Shown here: in pieces, positions 6,972 through 27,735 of the stretch
How positions within the stretch are numbered: position 1 is the stretch's first letter
Layout: each line of letters begins with the position of its first letter
Origin: an uncultured bacterium
GTDB lineage: Bacteria; Planctomycetota; Phycisphaerae; Sedimentisphaerales; Anaerobacaceae
Length of the DNA: 35,230 bases
Assembly: GCA_913009865.1 (NCBI GenBank)
Contig: CAJVYK010000002.1
Span: 1 to 35,230, forward strand
Direction: 5' to 3'
The notes under the pieces: model-generated
What the model was told of the DNA's origin: nothing
Seen by the model: only the letters and a program-made list of their open reading frames with translations
Databases searched by the model: none
Program-made: the position numbers and the translations under genes

Positions 6972-8375
6972 TTACCCACCCCTGCGGTGTAATATTTCTT
7001 TGCGAATGTTCGAAACCGCATCGATGTATTTTTGCCCGATTGCCTTATTTCTTGCTTCGACTATAATTCTCATTACCGGCTCGGTATTACTGGTTCTCAA
7101 GTGTATCCAGCCGTCGTCGAAATCGAATCGGCAGCCGTCGGTGGTATCCAGCTTTGCATTGGTAAAAAGTTTTTTTGCCGAGTTCAGGATTTGCTGTGCT
7201 TGTGTTTGTTCTACGGCGAATTTGTCCTTGCTCATATAATAGCCGCCGATTTCACTGACCAGCTGGCTTATTGTTTTTTTGGTTTCAGCCATTAACTGCA
7301 GAACAAGTCCGATACCGACAAGACTGTCGCGGACCGGCCCGACTCTCAAGTCAATCACTCCACCGTTACCTTCTCCTCCGATGATACAGTTATGTTCGAG
7401 CATTGCCGCTGCGACATTTGCCTCTCCCACAGCGCTGCGGTAAACCTGCCCGCCGTATCTTTCGGCGATGTCATCGAGCATTCTCGATGTCGAAAGATTT
7501 GTTGCCGCACTGCCGTTTTTTTTGCTGAAGATGTATTTTGCTGCCAGGGCAAGCGTATATTCTTCACCGATATAGGTTCCGTTTTCGTCAACGATTGCCA
7601 GTCTGTCGGCATCGGGGTCCTGAGCGAACCCAATGTCGGCTTGTTTCGTTTTTACCGCTTCACAAAGGCCGGTTAAGTTTTCAGCGGCTGGTTCAGGCCC
7701 GTGAGCGAACAGGCCGGTGGGCTCATCATTTATTGCGGAAACTGCGCATTTCAGTTCAGCGAGCATTTTTTTCGTAACCCGCCCGCCTGCTCCATTGACA
7801 CTGTCCAGGACGACCTTGAATTTTTTTACTGCTATTGTTTCTCTGTCAACGATTGCCAGAACCTTAGCGATGTGGGTGGTATCGGTTTGGTTTTCGGTGG
7901 TTTTCTTGCCGCAGTTAGCCGAATCGACAAAGGTAAAATTTTTATTACAAAAATATTTCTTGATTTGTTCAGATGCCTCTGTCGGCGGAGCGATACCATT
8001 ATCGAGTAATAGTTTTATACCGTTGTATTGAATCGGATTATGGGATGCGGTAATAATAACTCCGCCTGCACAGCCGAGTTCTCTTACCATAATCCCGACG
8101 CCGGGCGTGGTTACTATTCCCAAATCTGTCACGTCAATTCCGACGCCGCACAATCCTGCTGTTACCGCTGATTTCAGCATCTGGCCGCTGGGCCGGGAAT
8201 CGGCGCCGATACACACAGACAATCGTGCCTCGTGTCTCGTGCTCTGTACCCCGAAGTGCCTGTTTCTTAGAAATGCACCGAAGGCGCTTCCGTACTCGGC
8301 GGCGATGGATGCGGTAAGGTTTTCTCCGACGATACCTCTCAATCCACTGATACTTATTATTAATTGCTCAGCCAT
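6972..8375 (-). CDS. glmM: Phosphoglucosamine mutase / phosphomannomutase family (alpha-D-phosphohexomutase)
   Basis: SISGLRGIVGENLT, catalytic ITASHNPIQYNGIKL, metal loop DPDADRLAIVDENG, GGEGNGGVI, RTSNTEPVMRIIVEA. Confidence 0.85.
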   Translation of the reverse strand: MAEQLIISISGLRGIVGENLTASIAAEYGSAFGAFLRNRHFGVQSTRHEARLSVCIGADSRPSGQMLKSAVTAGLCGVGIDVTDLGIVTTPGVGIMVRELGCAGGVIITASHNPIQYNGIKLLLDNGIAPPTEASEQIKKYFCNKNFTFVDSANCGKKTTENQTDTTHIAKVLAIVDRETIAVKKFKVVLDSVNGAGGRVTKKMLAELKCAVSAINDEPTGLFAHGPEPAAENLTGLCEAVKTKQADIGFAQDPDADRLAIVDENGTYIGEEYTLALAAKYIFSKKNGSAATNLSTSRMLDDIAERYGGQVYRSAVGEANVAAAMLEHNCIIGGEGNGGVIDLRVGPVRDSLVGIGLVLQLMAETKKTISQLVSEIGGYYMSKDKFAVEQTQAQQILNSAKKLFTNAKLDTTDGCRFDFDDGWIHLRTSNTEPVMRIIVEARNKAIGQKYIDAVSNIRKEILHRRGG

Positions 8376-8385
8376 ACCAAATGTT

Positions 8386-8415
8386 GTATTGCGTATATCG
8401 TATTGCGTATTGCGT
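8386..8415. repeat. 7-nt degenerate tandem array (GTATTGC family)
   Basis: GTATTGC|GTATATC|GTATTGC|GTATTGC|GT. The same 30-bp string recurs at 27444-27473. Confidence 0.9.
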
Positions 8416-8606
8416 TAAAGCTTCTTAAGGAGATTTGAAATCATTCGGCAAATATGATCCAATTTCTCAAGCAATACTGTTTCTTTGTCTTCTTGTATAT
8501 ATTGTAACTTTTTTGCTATTGTTATTTGTGTTTCCAGTTCTGCACAACTTCCCAACGATATGTACAAAAATTGATTGTATTCCTTTACGCAATACACATC
8601 ACGCAC
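8415..8606 (-). pseudogene. Truncated four-helix-bundle (S23 / 23S rRNA IVS-type) protein fragment
   Basis: YISLGSCAELETQITIAKKLQYI...LEKLDHICRMISNLLKKL matches the C-terminal half of S23-family proteins. The N-terminal half is absent and the first residues are encoded by repeat sequence. Confidence 0.75.
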
Positions 8607-8621
8607 GACGCAATACGAGCG
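8587..8621. repeat. 7-nt degenerate tandem array (ACGCAAT, inverted GTATTGC family)
   Basis: ACGCAAT|ACACATC|ACGCACG|ACGCAAT|ACGAGCG, opposite orientation to 8386-8415. Confidence 0.85.
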
Positions 8622-8622
8622 A

Positions 8623-10212
8623 TCAGTTCAGCTTGCAGACGTAAATTTCGTTTACGAAATCAAGTTTGCCGAGTTCTTCAATGGCTTTTGCATCGGGTTC
8701 CCTGTCGAGACTGACGGCAAGAATGGCCTTTTGCTCCGCCGGCTTTTGTCCTACTCCCATTGTGCAGATATTGATATTATGCTTTCCGCAGACGGTTCCC
8801 ACCGCCCCTATAACGCCGGGCTTATCATCGTTAAAGATAACCAGTACCGCTCCCTGCGGAGTGACTTCTATATTGAAGCCGTCGATTTCAATAATTCGCA
8901 GTTGTGTTCCGCCGAAGACTGAGCCGGTTACAGTTCGTGTAACTTTATCTGTAACGACCTTTGCGCTGAAACTTGCCGCCACATCCTTGGCCTCGGTGTT
9001 TTTCGTCTCGTCGATGCTTATACCGCGTTCTTTGGCCAGGATAGCGACATTGACCGTATTGAGGGGCATCTCGAAATGCTGCTGCAGCAATCCGATTGCG
9101 AAGTGAAGTGTGACCGGCTCGACCGCCATTTCGGCGATTGAGCCGCGATACTGTACCGCAATATCCTTAATCCTGCCTGCTGCGATAGTGCTGACAAGTG
9201 TACCGATTCGCTGGGCAAGTTCAGCATATTTACTTACAACCGGCGGCATAGCTCCGGCGGCTGCTGGTGCGTTCAGCGCGTTTCTGACCGGCCCATCGCC
9301 GAGAGCATCAACAAGGATTTGAGCGGCCTCGACGGCAACATCGATTTGGGCTTCTGTTGTGCTGGCCCCTAAGTGCGGCGTGACCAGGCAATTTTCAAAT
9401 TCGGTGAATCGGGTATTTGCCGGCGGTTCTGTGGGATAAACGTCTAAGGCGGCGCCGGCTATTGCACCCTCGGCAAGTGCGTTATAGAGTGCATCTTCGT
9501 TGATAATCCCTCCCCGTGCGCAGTTGATTAACCGGACGGTCGGCTTCATCATTTTGATTTGCTCGGCGTCAATCATATTCAGCGTTTGCTCGTTTCTCGG
9601 CACGTGCACGCTGATGTAGTCGGCTTCTTTGAAGATTTTTTCAAGGCCGTCGGTTACTTCGATACCGAGTTTTTCTGCGTCAGCCGGTGCGGCAAGCGGG
9701 TCGAAGCCCATGATTTTCATATTGAATCCTTTTGCCATTTCCGCCACAGCCATCCCGATTCTTCCTAATCCTATCACGCCGAGGATTTTACCGTTGAGTT
9801 GATTTCCCATATATTTTTTTCTGTCCCATGCGCCGGCTTTTAAGCTGTTGCAGGCCGGCACAACATTTCGGCTCATCGCCAGCATTAGTGCTATCGTGTG
9901 TTCTGCGGCGCTGCGTGTATTTCCGCCGGGCGTATTCATAACCAGGATTCCTTTTCTGGTAGCTTCCGGGATATCGATATTATCTACACCGACACCTGCC
10001 CGGGCGATTGCCTTTAGTTTGCCGGGGTTAGCTAAGACTTTAGCGGTAACTTTTGTACCGCTTCGGATAATCAGGCCGTCGTATTCACCGATGATTTTGG
10101 CGAGTTCATCTTCGCTTATACCGGTTTTAACGACAGCTTCGACCCCGTCTGTCGCATTGAGCAGGTCGATTCCCTGCTGTGCAAGTTTATCTGTGATTAA
10201 AATCCTAATCAT
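8623..10212 (-). CDS. serA: D-3-phosphoglycerate dehydrogenase
   Basis: LGVIGLGRIGMAVAEMAKGFNMKIMGFDP, NCARGGIINEDALYNAL, VTPHLGASTTEAQ; C-terminal ACT domain (VIFNDDKPGVIGAVGTVCGKHNINICTMGVG). Confidence 0.96.
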   Translation of the reverse strand: MIRILITDKLAQQGIDLLNATDGVEAVVKTGISEDELAKIIGEYDGLIIRSGTKVTAKVLANPGKLKAIARAGVGVDNIDIPEATRKGILVMNTPGGNTRSAAEHTIALMLAMSRNVVPACNSLKAGAWDRKKYMGNQLNGKILGVIGLGRIGMAVAEMAKGFNMKIMGFDPLAAPADAEKLGIEVTDGLEKIFKEADYISVHVPRNEQTLNMIDAEQIKMMKPTVRLINCARGGIINEDALYNALAEGAIAGAALDVYPTEPPANTRFTEFENCLVTPHLGASTTEAQIDVAVEAAQILVDALGDGPVRNALNAPAAAGAMPPVVSKYAELAQRIGTLVSTIAAGRIKDIAVQYRGSIAEMAVEPVTLHFAIGLLQQHFEMPLNTVNVAILAKERGISIDETKNTEAKDVAASFSAKVVTDKVTRTVTGSVFGGTQLRIIEIDGFNIEVTPQGAVLVIFNDDKPGVIGAVGTVCGKHNINICTMGVGQKPAEQKAILAVSLDREPDAKAIEELGKLDFVNEIYVCKLN

Positions 10213-13849: not shown

Positions 13850-16735
13850 TTACCGCGGGTCGGGCACCGGATGCAGCGCACGGACTTTCACATTTCCGAT
13901 TATTCCGCCAGGCCCGTTGGGATACACATCGCTTCTGTCGAGTATTGCGATAACTCTTTTTTGCGGCCCGTTGGCCCCGATGCGAACGAGTATATAAGCG
14001 GTAAAGACATCACTTCGCACGGTAACAAGGTCGCTGATTCGTGAGAAGATTAAATCGCGCTCCTCGAAATCATTCGCTGCTTCATCGCCTAAGCTTCGTT
14101 TGCCGCCATGCGTCAGGTCAGGAAAACTCAGCTGGTCTATACCGTCACGCCAATAGTAGTCAATATTGCCTAAAGAGTTCGGATCGCTGACGACATTGTT
14201 TAACTCACCGATGCTTCTAAAACCTGCTACTGTATTATCTCGATATGTGACTATTGCCTGTGCGAGTTCGTAGTTGATGGGTTGATTTTTTTTCTGTGAG
14301 ACCCACGGCAACTGCGCTATCACGTACCACGGAGCGGTATTGATATTTATTCTGCCCTTTATTCTGGTTTCATTTGGGTCTGGCGTGTATTCTGCCGGGT
14401 CCATCACAGTCAGATATTTGAATAGCTGCTGGTAATAAAGGTTTTCTAAATCAATTCTCACATTGGCCTCGGTGGTATTTTCGTCCCAGGGCAAGTTATA
14501 GACGTCCCTTCTGAAAACCTGCCCTATTTCGCCGACGTTATTAAATCTTCCGAAACGAACCTGAATCGGGTCGGTATTGGGATTAGAATAGGTATTCCGA
14601 TGGCCGAGAGTCTCCTCCCGGAGACTGTTTAATATCGGGTCCCTGTCCCACAAACGTTTTATCCATCTATTCGGTGTAATGTCCCTCTGGAAACTGTGAA
14701 TGGCGCCGTTAGGGTCTGCACTCGAAACCAGCCAGGGCGGCACTATTACCGAATCAACCATAAGGTCATTACCATCAAAACTGCGTATCAGACTTATCTT
14801 GCTGTTGGCATCAAAGATAATGTCGGTATAATTTATATCATAAACATATGAATTGGGTTCAGTTACCCACGTCGTAAATTCCCAGGCCCCGCTGGTGCCT
14901 ATCACGTTGCCGTCATAGACATCATCGATTCGCCAGTAGTAGGTCGTGTTCGTATTCAGAGCGCCGGGAGGAGGACCATAAGGGTCATAAGACGGGTCAT
15001 TGTATGGTTTAGTGATAATGAATTCCGGAGAAGTGGTGTTGGCATCTCTCACATCGTTAAAATCGGTTCCGAAGTACACATCATAAGAGTAGTTTGCATC
15101 AGCTCCCGGCAGCACCGGCCAGCGAAGAACCACATCCGGGTCCACTCCTGTTTCTCCATTTTCAGGGCTGTCATTAAAGTCCACCAATTCCGCCAGCGGG
15201 ACATTCGTGTCTTCGAATACTATTACATTATATCGTTTTGCATCTTTCCCGAAGTCTGTAATAGGAATTGGGTCTATGCCTGAAATGATAAGCTGCCAGG
15301 TATCTGAATTACTGTGAGAATAACGTTTGCGAAGTTCGATTGCATAAGAGCTATAAATTATATTTGGGTCGTTGACGTCCGGCTTGAAACGATATACCAG
15401 TTCAGATATAAAAATACAAGGCTGCTCGAAGCCGTAATAGGTACTGCCGGCCATAGAAATTGTAGCTATATTTGCATCGTTGTCACGAAAGTCTTTGAGG
15501 TTGACAGCCATTTGCGCAGCTAAGGAATCGTCAATGACGCCGGCATCGCCAAGTCCTGCCCGTATAGCGCGATACAGGTCTCCAACGTTGGGATCGACAA
15601 CTGGATTTATTTTATTAACGTTAACCATTTTTCTACCATCCGGCCTGATAATCCTGTCCATATTGTAAATGGTTGATATATGGCGATAGTCATATTCATT
15701 AACATCCCAGGAGCTGTTATTCGCCTTCCAAAACCAACCATTGGGGTCGGTCAACTCGGGATTTTTTGTTCGGGGCATCTCAAGTCCGACGTCATAGGCG
15801 TTTGCCCAGAACTCTTCAATTCTTGTAGTAATCTTGTTGTAATTTAATATGTATCTATTTCGTAATTTCAGTTCATCCGAAATATCAAAAGGCGTATATT
15901 TTCCATTCGGCCTGTCATACCGCCAGACAACATTCCACTCATATGGCGACAAATCATTCAGCTCAGTACCACATCGCTCATCCTGCAACTTGACCGCTGC
16001 CACAGCAAGCGTTCCGTTCGCTCCCCGTTGAGAAAGTGCTGCAAGATTTATCTGCGTTTGGCTTGAGCCGTCAATTCTTGACCGGCCTTCATTGGGGTCG
16101 AATTTGTAAGCGGTGTTGATATTCAGCATCCCGCCGTTATCAATGACCCTGATAGCGGCAAAAATCGGCTTGCCTTTGTTGCTGGTCATATCGTTAAGCA
16201 TTACCCACACAGAATCGGAAACCCCATCGCCGTCGGCATCAGCGGGCAAGCCCTCATTTACCTCTGGTGGTAGCTGATAGTCCGGGATAATTTTAGCAAG
16301 CAGGCCGGGCCGTGGCCCGAATTTTTCATAAATATCACTTATATGTCGCCAGTAATATCCGCCGCCACTATTTACATCGGGTTCAAGCGATGCCAGCCAT
16401 GCGTTGTTGACATCAGGATAGTCATAGTATTCCTGGTTTGGGTCCACTGCGCCGGGGGTATCTAAAACAAGCTGCTGCGATATCTCTGCGATGACCGTAT
16501 CGACGGCTAAATTAAGTTCCTTATTTTCCGATATGGCTGACGTTGATATTTTGTCCACGCGGGCGACCATAAGAAACATCACGCCGATAATGGCTAAAAG
16601 ACTGGTCAGAACCACAGCTAAGATAAGAGCCGAGCCGGCGTTCATTCGTAACTCGTCGCTCCGCCGTGAGGCGTGCTGCGCAGTGACTCGTCGCTCGTTT
16701 TTTGTATTTTGTATGTCGTATTTCGTATGTCGCAT
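13850..16735 (-). CDS. GspK-like type II secretion minor pseudopilin with embedded FN3-like module
   Basis: GSALILAVVLTSLLAIIGVMFLMVARVDKIS N-terminus; GRININTAPWYVIAQLPWV and AQAIVTYRDNTVAGFRSIGELNNV helix-hairpin-like segments. Native start may be ATG 16645 (MNAGSAL...). Confidence 0.8.
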   Translation of the reverse strand: MRHTKYDIQNTKNERRVTAQHASRRSDELRMNAGSALILAVVLTSLLAIIGVMFLMVARVDKISTSAISENKELNLAVDTVIAEISQQLVLDTPGAVDPNQEYYDYPDVNNAWLASLEPDVNSGGGYYWRHISDIYEKFGPRPGLLAKIIPDYQLPPEVNEGLPADADGDGVSDSVWVMLNDMTSNKGKPIFAAIRVIDNGGMLNINTAYKFDPNEGRSRIDGSSQTQINLAALSQRGANGTLAVAAVKLQDERCGTELNDLSPYEWNVVWRYDRPNGKYTPFDISDELKLRNRYILNYNKITTRIEEFWANAYDVGLEMPRTKNPELTDPNGWFWKANNSSWDVNEYDYRHISTIYNMDRIIRPDGRKMVNVNKINPVVDPNVGDLYRAIRAGLGDAGVIDDSLAAQMAVNLKDFRDNDANIATISMAGSTYYGFEQPCIFISELVYRFKPDVNDPNIIYSSYAIELRKRYSHSNSDTWQLIISGIDPIPITDFGKDAKRYNVIVFEDTNVPLAELVDFNDSPENGETGVDPDVVLRWPVLPGADANYSYDVYFGTDFNDVRDANTTSPEFIITKPYNDPSYDPYGPPPGALNTNTTYYWRIDDVYDGNVIGTSGAWEFTTWVTEPNSYVYDINYTDIIFDANSKISLIRSFDGNDLMVDSVIVPPWLVSSADPNGAIHSFQRDITPNRWIKRLWDRDPILNSLREETLGHRNTYSNPNTDPIQVRFGRFNNVGEIGQVFRRDVYNLPWDENTTEANVRIDLENLYYQQLFKYLTVMDPAEYTPDPNETRIKGRININTAPWYVIAQLPWVSQKKNQPINYELAQAIVTYRDNTVAGFRSIGELNNVVSDPNSLGNIDYYWRDGIDQLSFPDLTHGGKRSLGDEAANDFEERDLIFSRISDLVTVRSDVFTAYILVRIGANGPQKRVIAILDRSDVYPNGPGGIIGNVKVRALHPVPDPR

Positions 16736-16790
16736 TTCGTATCTCGTATTTTATTTTCTATGAACTATGAACAATAAACTACGAACTATT
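16646..16790. repeat. Compound 7-nt array region (ACTCGTCGCTC, TCGTATT and TGAACTA families)
   Basis: TTGTATT|TTGTATG|TCGTATT|TCGTATG|TCGCATT|TCGTATC|TCGTATT, then TGAACTA|TGAACAA|TAAACTA|CGAACTA|TT. Confidence 0.9.
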
Positions 16791-17715
16791 CCTCTAAATA
16801 AACAATATGCGTAAACGTCCGCCCTTTCTCTAAAATCCCCTTCGAATCGTACAGCGTAAAGGTAAATTTGAGAGCTTGCGGCCAGTACTCCTTTGGGACG
16901 GCTGGTGTCCAGGATGCTCTATAAATAAAATTCGGCAGCACTGGTAGGTCCTCAATGCTACTATAGTTAGGATCCCCGCTTTTCCGCCACATCCCAAGGC
17001 CAAACCAGTTCAGCGAATTGTCTAAAGGATATATTGTTCCATCCGTCCACTCGATTATAATTTCACCGACATTCTGGCACATCAGGCTCCTGACGCTATT
17101 CGGGTCAGCTTGAATATCTATTGGAATACGAAAAGTATTAGGGTCGAATAAACTGTTAGCATCAGTCCTGGTACTCACCAAATACGTTTTTCGCTCGGCA
17201 TAACTTATATCATTATAATCAACAACTGCCGGCGGGGGCGGTAACAGTATCCCCGGAGTTATCAACTCAACGTCTCTTGCCAGATTCCATTGGCTTATTG
17301 GAATTGGATTTAACGGATTTAAAGAAATGCTGTCGTGTCCGAAATAGACCCGTGCTATATTGCTTCTATAGTAGGGAGGGAACCACGATTGAAAATCGCC
17401 CGTCGTGAAATAATAAATCCTGTCCGCTTCGAAGTCCTTGAAACTTGGTGAATCGTTAAACTGTTTTCTGAGGACAAGCTCTGAATACAGCATCAGGTAT
17501 CCATCTTTCCGCAGGCCCTTGAAGTCTCTGTTGAGCTGGTCGGTGATGGCACGCAAATTCCGCATAATTTCAGCGTTTGCGCTCGATGCGCGGTAGGCAT
17601 TTATGCTGACTTTGAAAATCACGCCTGAGAAGGATATCACCATAGTCAAAAGCGCAACAGCGACTACAAGCTCGATTAGAGTAAAGGCCTTATTAGTTCG
17701 TAGTTTATAGTTCAT
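16786..17715 (-). CDS. Prepilin-type N-terminal cleavage/methylation protein (GspJ-like)
   Basis: KAFTLIELVVAVALLTMVISFSGVIFKVS class III signal peptide. Confidence 0.85.
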   Translation of the reverse strand: MNYKLRTNKAFTLIELVVAVALLTMVISFSGVIFKVSINAYRASSANAEIMRNLRAITDQLNRDFKGLRKDGYLMLYSELVLRKQFNDSPSFKDFEADRIYYFTTGDFQSWFPPYYRSNIARVYFGHDSISLNPLNPIPISQWNLARDVELITPGILLPPPPAVVDYNDISYAERKTYLVSTRTDANSLFDPNTFRIPIDIQADPNSVRSLMCQNVGEIIIEWTDGTIYPLDNSLNWFGLGMWRKSGDPNYSSIEDLPVLPNFIYRASWTPAVPKEYWPQALKFTFTLYDSKGILEKGRTFTHIVYLEE

Positions 17716-17728
17716 AGTTCATCGATTC
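17694..17728. repeat. 7-nt array (GTTCATA family)
   Basis: GTTCGTA|GTTTATA|GTTCATA|GTTCATC|GATTC. Contains the S23 stop codon and encodes the start of the GspJ-like ORF. Confidence 0.9.
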
Positions 17729-18072
17729 AAAGACCGTTTCAAGCCACTTAACATCTTTGACAGGTCTGTTAGGTCATTTTTAAAGTTAATAAATGCTTTC
17801 TGGTTTACATAACATTGTTTGAGTGATATCTGCAGCACTGTAACGCACTCAAAAACTGAACCCCTTGCCATATCTATGAAACGACTGAAGTCTTTTTTGC
17901 TTCGAGCCGATCCTTCCGAGATATTCAATGCTATGGAAACTGCGGCTCTCCTCAATTGGCTTATTAAGCCGAACAATTCATCTTTTGGGAAAGTCTTTGT
18001 TAGTAAATAAATGCTATTAGCCAAATCAATCGCCTTATTATAAACATCGAGGTCTTCAAAATTAAATCCCAT
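17719..18072 (-). CDS. Four-helix-bundle protein (S23 / 23S rRNA intervening-sequence family)
   Basis: FEDLDVYNKAIDLANSIYLLTKTFPKDELFGLISQLRRAAVSIALNISEGSARSKKDFSRFIDMARGSVFECVTVLQIS: characteristic QLRRAAVSIxLNIxEG motif. Confidence 0.92.
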   Translation of the reverse strand: MGFNFEDLDVYNKAIDLANSIYLLTKTFPKDELFGLISQLRRAAVSIALNISEGSARSKKDFSRFIDMARGSVFECVTVLQISLKQCYVNQKAFINFKNDLTDLSKMLSGLKRSLNR

Positions 18073-18086
18073 TGAGTCGTCTTTCT

Positions 18087-18117
18087 ATGAACAACGAACA
18101 ACGAACAATGAACAATT
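18087..18117. repeat. 7-nt array (ATGAACA family, inverted relative to 17694-17728)
   Basis: ATGAACA|ACGAACA|ACGAACA|ATGAACA|ATT. Confidence 0.9.
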
Positions 18118-20375: not shown

Positions 20376-20435
20376 TTTAGCCACTGATACCACAGATTAA
20401 CAAAGAGTGTAAAGTGCCTAAAAATGCCTAAAGTT
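20376..20435. repeat. About 10-nt array with TTAGCCAC lead
   Basis: TTTAGCCACTGATACCACAGATTAACAAAGAGTG, then TAAAGTGCC|TAAAAATGCC|TAAAG. Confidence 0.6.
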
Positions 20436-20476
20436 TTCAACTTTTAACTTTAGCTCACTTTAGCTTACTCCTCTTC

Positions 20477-26820: not shown

Positions 26821-27735
26821 GATAGCGGGCAGCGGATACCTGTGGCAGAGCTAGCGTATAGGAAAAAAACAAAAACTTAGCCACAAAGAAAGTTAGCGTA
26901 CAGCGGGTAGCGTTTAGCGTATAGACAAAAAACAAAACTCAGACACAGATGAACACAGATGAACACAGATTAAAAAAAAGAAAAAAACAGTGTAAACCTG
27001 TGCCTTGGGTATCAGTGTTAATCTGTGTCGAAAAAAAACAAAAGACAAAAAACAAAACTCAGACACAAAGAAAGTTAGCGTACAGCGGGTAGCGTATGGC
27101 GTATAGACAAAAAACAAAACTCAGACACAGATGAACACAGAGGTTTTTTTAGCCAGCTTGGCGTTGACGGATTAAAAAATTTTGGGTAGTCTGGGGTTTG
27201 AAAGTAAAAAGTAAAAGGTAGCAAAGAAAGAAATGGGTGGCTGTGGGGCTAATTAAATTGTCCCTAATTAAATTTGGACACGAATTAACACAAATCAAAA
27301 AAAGCAAAAACGGATATAATTTAGCCACAGATACCTATGGCATAAATTTACACAGATTAACACTGATTTTTATCAACCGCAGAGAACGCAAAGAACGCAG
27401 AGGTTCAATAGTATTTAGTTGAAAGAAATTGCGGGTTTATTTGGTATTGCGTATATCGTATTGCGTATTGCGTCTGAGGAGGCCTGCGGGCTGTTTTAGA
27501 ATTGACTGATTAGAATCCTTCGGCTATGCTCAGGACTTCCGCTTTGCTCCAGTTTTGGGTAGTCTGGGGATTGAAAGTAAAAAGTAAAAGGTAGCAAAGA
27601 AAGAAATGGGTGGCTGTCCCTAATTATATAATTATACTTAAGAAAGAAATGGGTGGCTGTCCCTAATTATATAAGAAAGAAATGGGTGGCTGTCCCTAAT
27701 TATATAATTATATGTCCCTAATTATATAAACATTC
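26821..27735. repeat. Repeat hub: several 7/9/10-nt arrays plus 77-bp, 65-bp and about 35-bp direct repeats
   Basis: AGCGTAC|AGCGGGT|AGCGTTT|AGCGTAT (26895-26922); ACACAGATGA|ACACAGATGA|ACACAGATTA (26943-26972); 65-bp repeat at 27180-27244 and 27553-27617; AAGAAAGAAATGGGTGGCTGTCCCTAATTATAT x3 near 27599-27712. Confidence 0.9.

Follow-up and report, generated by a model that had tools for sequence, protein, structure and literature searches.

The region at positions 8386–8621 of the window, by which we mean the whole 35,230 nt stretch of DNA analysed here, from an uncultured bacterium of the Sedimentisphaerales, is very probably the degenerate remnant of a small mobile element made up of an S23 gene with inverted arms of tandem heptads. 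That the element is a mobile one, with the arms as its termini, we consider highly probable. Within the literature searched, a dispersed S23 element with heptad arms has not been described previously, and we know of no role for the S23 family outside rRNA. S23 elements may explain the origin of many of the 7-nt repeats for which no explanation has been given.

The S23 locus between serA and glmM

The region is bordered by serA (8623–10212) and glmM (6972–8375), all on the minus strand, and S23 is the only ORF content between its two arrays (Table 1). The left array reads GTATTGC GTATATC GTATTGC GTATTGC GT and was assigned a period of 7 by Tandem Repeats Finder, while the right array reads ACGCAAT ACACATC ACGCACG ACGCAAT ACGAGCG, or CGCTCGT ATTGCGT CGTGCGT GATGTGT ATTGCGT on the minus strand where it forms the 5′ arm of S23; the two arrays face each other in inverted orientation. 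The ORF between them (8415–8606, minus strand) is the C-terminal half of S23, with residues 8–57 of the fragment aligning to the positions of the PF05635 profile given in Table 1 (49.1 bits, cut-off 33.8), and TIGR02436 was also matched (51.3 bits, cut-off 24). An earlier note on this DNA had described a truncated S23 gene between inverted GTATTGC/ACGCAAT heptads, and both arrays and the C-terminal half of PF05635 were indeed present; the left array starts at 8386, two bases to the right of the position 8384 given there.

Table 1. Positions of the S23 loci, their arms and a further heptad array in the window
Feature	Position	Strand	Remarks
3′ arm (S23 sense)	8386..8415	-	Four plus-strand GTATTGC-type heptads starting at the S23 stop codon; the sister species G001 has an identical arm
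S23 remnant, C-terminal half, pseudogene	8415..8585	-	PF05635 positions 56–105; full-length orthologue G001:C71:10169-10483
AAGGAATA, putative deletion junction	8578..8585	-	Octamer found twice in the sister copy, directly 5′ of the start codon and mid-gene
5′ arm	8587..8621	-	Five plus-strand ACGCAAT-type heptads; S23-less hairpins L021 and L025 share the unit order
3′ arm, second S23 element	17692..17722	-	TAGTTCA units
Full-length second S23 gene	17719..18072	-	PF05635, 120.2 bits
5′ arm, second S23 element	18086..18117	-	TGAACAA units on the plus strand
GTATTGC-family array without S23 gene	27444..27473	+	Elsewhere in the window

A full-length version of the gene, which the earlier note had proposed to look for at this junction in relatives, was found in the sister species G001 (serA 97% identical), where S23 has its start codon and lies between the same arms, with CGTATTGCGTCGTGCGTGATGCGTATTGCGT 5′ of S23 and CGCAATACGCAATACGATATACGCAATAC directly 3′ of the stop codon. 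The octamer AAGGAATA occurs in two copies in G001 and in a single copy in the window, and comparison of the two sequences suggests that the N-terminal half of the window S23 was lost by internal deletion between these direct repeats. Such a deletion would account for the truncation as well as for the first residues of the fragment, which are read from the array as had been noted, since it would have joined the array to mid-gene sequence. The truncation thus appears to be a secondary event that was not caused by the heptads, with the repeat-encoded N-terminus a probable by-product of the deletion. It may also stem from an assembly error, as the source genome is a draft (1.85 Mb in 210 contigs, ~69% complete, with 11 S23 matches), and the architecture is unaffected either way. 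The arms are nearly identical in the window species and the sister species, and rapid turnover of the repeats was therefore rejected over the short term. In more distant relatives, the serA-glmM junction either was without any array (L088, L091 and L095) or, likewise without S23, contained a short inverted hairpin whose units are quite different (L084 and L093). The glmM coding region itself contains in-frame heptads at 8223–8242 (TCGTGCC TCGTGTC TCGTGCT), of which three units preserve the frame, and another heptad run (GGGCCAC / GAGTCAC) is located at about the same position in glmM of G004 (L084).

The second S23 locus of the window, also proposed earlier, likewise has matched inverted arms, here of the TAGTTCA / TGAACAA type. 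Adjoining arrays of TCGTATT and CTATGAA are located at 16695–16789, with CTATGAA belonging to the family of the arms of the second S23 gene, so that inverted arrays also lie on both sides of the pilin-like gene at 16786–17715. Positions 20410–20469 hold a short pair of inverted 10-nt units (AAAGTGCCTA / ACTTTAGCTC) without S23, and arms built from a similar 10-nt unit flank S23 at locus L121 of the sister species. The repeats of 33–41 nt at 27597–27713 (AAGAAAGAAATGGGTGGCTGTCCCTAATTATATAATTATAT) are unconnected with the S23 question.

Inverted arms at other S23 genes

For each gene, the 5′ flank of 200 bp was compared with the reverse-complemented 3′ flank of 200 bp, using score thresholds of ≥10 and ≥14. 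Within the source genome, 10/11 S23 genes had an inverted match at ≥10, versus 27/334 other ORFs (Fisher p = 6e-10), a control which may include L005, the only S23 gene that lacks arms. Inverted arrays are therefore strongly enriched at the other S23 loci of the assembly and the association is unlikely to be due to chance, both as the earlier note had anticipated. The S23 loci counted in this and the wider samples are partly non-independent of one another: 86% of the 49 loci from the source genome and its relatives scored ≥10 and 51% ≥14 (mispaired flanks 9% and 1.3%), and so did 66/79 and 42/79 loci of a multi-phylum sample that was drawn by a conserved peptide motif and under-represents highly divergent S23 (mispaired flanks 9% and 0.6%; p = 2e-7 versus 22 neighbouring ORFs). 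This last sample covered Nitrospirota, Bacteroidota, Patescibacteria, Omnitrophota, Clostridia, Pseudomonadota, Cyanobacteria, Methanophagales archaea and others. Matched arms were absent at ~14–16% of S23 genes, and the inverted-arm architecture is general, being found at most of the S23 copies examined in bacteria and in some archaea. On a Pseudanabaena plasmid (L292), the genes cas6 and cas4 flank an S23 element that has long arms of TAGCTTT units.

In the source genome, intergenic heptad arrays are frequent, and 86 of 338 control ORFs have one in at least one flank, as would be expected if the arrays were ordinary simple repeats that are born by slippage and fill intergenic regions in which S23 is merely located. 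However, matched inverted arrays on both sides were specific to S23, the arms track the S23 lineage across loci and genera, and two sites without S23 are also without arms. Genes for GIY-YIG nucleases and Y1 transposases in these genomes do have flanking inverted repeats, but without tandem units, which speaks against slippage and also led us to reject heptad arms as a feature of small mobile genes in general. An origin of the arms as ordinary slippage repeats is contradicted at most loci and very improbable. The repeats at the GIY-YIG nuclease genes L237, L240 and L243 of relatives are inverted and non-tandem, of the type TGTCATTCCGAG, and those flanking the Y1 transposase genes are of the AGGGGTCAGGAGC type. 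A V-ATPase-subunit-like ORF between inverted arrays (L034) was discarded as it is not S23, and looks like a case of two adjoining arrays of an AT-rich family.

Among the 83 loci with clear arms, the period was 7 in 63, 8 in 14 and 9 in 3, and the median number of units was 4.9 for the 5′ arm and 4.6 for the 3′ arm. When read in the S23 direction, the 5′ arm contained more G than C in 61 loci and less in 13 (p = 1e-8), indicating that the arms have a constant orientation with respect to S23. Variant units were mirrored in their order between the arms only weakly (p = 0.03), and a strict palindrome with mirrored unit order was set aside, as the arms share a unit motif and are not exact mirror images; what is conserved is this motif itself, which runs in opposite directions in the two arms. 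A division of the unit into 4 conserved and 3 variable nucleotides, clear by eye, was not significant on permuting the phases. The arm sequence varies between loci and tracks the lineage of the S23 protein, with arms shared by 68% of non-orthologous S23 pairs at ≥70% protein identity, by 32% at 60–70% and by ~2% below 50%, versus ≤6.5% in a wrong-orientation control.

The constant orientation would also suit arms that are fixed regulatory parts, for instance a stem processed by RNase III or a control of S23 translation, with the apparent mobility being ordinary horizontal transfer of the gene and its flanks. Predicted RNA folds do pair both arms in a stem that closes around S23, with z = -4.7 for the intact and -2.0 for the truncated copy, and a stem of this kind in the intervening sequence (IVS) of Coxiella is a substrate of RNase III (PMC4990558). 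Yet the mismatches in the arms showed no excess of G-U (109 G-U versus 116 A-C), so that selection for an RNA stem via tolerance of G-U pairs went undetected, hairpins that have the same arms but no S23 are scattered in numerous copies, and a copy of the element is present at a second locus inside one genome. A purely regulatory role of the arms is accordingly an unlikely explanation. The absence of a G-U excess, the weak mirroring and the unit motif shared in opposite orientation make us lean towards recognition of the units by a protein rather than towards a strictly paired stem, and S23 would be the natural candidate for that protein.

Transfer of the element and the part played by S23

Two loci of the source genome share 448 bp at 88%, which comprise exactly S23 and both arms, and their flanks are unrelated. 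Blocks of S23 plus arms that are shared between genera measure 390–470 bp, including 438 bp at 83% that are common to loci in different genera; 470 bp at 85.5% are common to the source genome and another planctomycete, and a similar block at 71% is shared with a candidate phylum (L113 and L155). At two sites, trpG-trpD and topA, S23 with arms is present in the window genome, and neither gene nor arms are present in the sister genome. At the former site the arm provides the stop codon of trpG, replacing the last trpG codons, and 44 bp of a different sequence occupy the site in the sister genome, which means that the insertion was not a clean addition; no target duplication was found at these two empty sites, where the junctions are too divergent to show one. 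A third site has S23 with TAGTATT arms in the sister species and only a short TAGCGTA array in the window genome, and a fourth is occupied in the window genome by a different small ORF, without arms. These sequence comparisons show that arms and gene arrive together. Beside the S23 element at topA there is a dispersed repeat of 52 bp (L002, ~1154–1205), with ~20 copies at 94–98% identity in G001, where it is spread over many contigs.

Arms also occur without the gene. The hairpins L021 and L025 of the source genome (Table 1) are short and lack S23, as do TAGT-type hairpins on C40 and C95 of the same genome. The pattern CGTATTGCGTATTGCG of the GTATTGC family (≤2 mismatches) had 71 matches in the source genome and 223 in G013, the maximum among relatives, counts in which a single array may yield several matches; the reversed control pattern gave 0–8 matches per strand, and CGTATTGCGTATTGCG was nearly absent outside the family to which the window belongs. 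On Nostoc plasmids, four of five tandem-armed hairpins were without S23 and one was with S23, the unit type being the same within a record.

None of the elements examined encodes a transposase, nuclease or reverse transcriptase, and S23 itself had no match to a known transposase or nuclease family in profile searches. The two S23 relatives that have been solved, 2gsc and 2rld, each list five identical chains, and the agreement of about five units per arm with five S23 subunits is an attractive suggestion. An intact element consists of one S23 (four-helix-bundle) gene between two inverted arms, ~390–470 bp in all, with about five units per arm that measure 7 nt, or in some lineages 8 or 9 nt. 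In the mechanism that we propose, the element as a whole would copy or transfer into intergenic gaps, often flush against a stop or start codon, and would leave behind S23-less hairpins and lone arrays. The arms would be the recognised ends, the pentameric S23 protein may bind the repeated unit, and S23 would participate in movement, probably alongside a further factor, from the host or elsewhere, since it resembles no known transposase or nuclease. We put forward only tentatively that S23 both binds the units and acts in movement.

A mechanism that differs only in the role of S23, and is possible to a similar, limited degree, would have the element moved in trans by the enzyme of another element acting on the hairpin, with S23 a passenger or a silencing factor. 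It would fit the lack of enzymatic family matches for S23, the array matches without S23, which far outnumber the S23 copies, and the Y1 transposase genes that were found in 20/26 genomes searched; however, the repeats flanking these Y1 genes are quite different and non-tandem, 6/26 genomes had no Y1 match, and the association of arms and S23 spans many phyla. S23 could also be a relative of Avd that works with a reverse transcriptase, such that the element moves via RNA like a minimal diversity-generating retroelement. The similarity is weak, with bAvd at 15.3 bits (cut-off 40) and the NCBIfam Avd family at 17.9 (cut-off 80), and the sole S23-like matches found by tblastn in phage records were annotated as Avd, an outcome on which a phage origin was dismissed. 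As the similarity stays under the family thresholds and the elements examined carry no reverse transcriptase, we regard movement via RNA as improbable.

Comparison with known systems

Mobile elements that carry S23 inside 23S rRNA genes have long been known, and of the known systems they come nearest to the element described here. The S23 IVSs in the 23S rRNA of Leptospira and Coxiella encode the same protein family and have inverted termini that close a stem, and mobility was proposed for them earlier; in the same manner, the predicted RNA folds of the window element pair its terminal inverted repeats around the S23 ORF. Unlike the 23S IVS, the window element is located between protein genes (serA and glmM) and not in rRNA, and the dispersed elements have many copies per genome, different heptads and S23-less derivatives. 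As part of the explanation that we favour, the 23S rRNA IVS carrying S23 is probably the same kind of element at another location. The dispersed S23 element is kin of the S23 IVS elements, with a fair chance of being a class of its own.

The REP/REPIN-RAYT systems consist of a small gene flanked by inverted repeats, together with many gene-less palindromes of the same family. The S23 element resembles them in having a gene with inverted flanks plus gene-less relatives, and differs in that it contains no Y1 transposase and has tandem 7-nt arrays as its ends, not single palindromes. Like MITEs and other non-autonomous inverted-repeat elements, it is short, transposase-free, intergenic and dispersed, whereas its termini are made of tandem units and the parent element encodes S23 instead of a transposase. 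With regard to the Avd of diversity-generating retroelements, the S23 fragment falls below both Avd cut-offs.

A counterpart of the arrays is given by the heptameric repeats that are over-represented in many bacterial genomes and whose origin is unexplained (PMC4692102). Others are the GGGAATC repeats of Xanthomonas and Nostoc, which in Xanthomonas mostly have four units and are often found as inverted pairs in intergenic regions (PMC4692102), and the heptameric STRRs of cyanobacteria, also unexplained so far (PMC2670836). In the Coxiella S23 IVS, three to four tandem GACAGAT heptamers directly precede S23, and the terminal stem is 28 bp long (PMC4990558). Like STRRs, the window arrays are tandem 7-nt units able to form a hairpin, and on cyanobacterial plasmids all eight S23 genes examined have heptamer arms, with S23-less hairpins present on the same plasmids. 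In contrast to STRRs, which belong to heterocystous cyanobacteria, the window S23 has a Sedimentisphaerales bacterium as its closest named relative (L130). No link between S23 and repeats of the STRR or Xanthomonas type was found in a literature search which covered few subscription journals. The STRRs look like remains of S23 elements, as the GGGAATC repeats of Xanthomonas may also be, and it is likely that S23 elements are a source of heptameric repeats, those of cyanobacteria included. In its widest form, this would make S23 with inverted heptad arms a distinct class of mobile element, almost universal among bacteria and archaea, in which a pentameric S23 without known transposase chemistry reads tandem-unit ends and of which most simple repeats of heptamers in bacteria, among them the STRRs, would be the remains; we offer this as a speculative possibility. 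If the link holds, one small element would account for over-represented heptamers, for STRRs and for S23 outside rRNA, and the role of S23 would become directly testable, by asking whether it binds its own repeats and whether it moves them.
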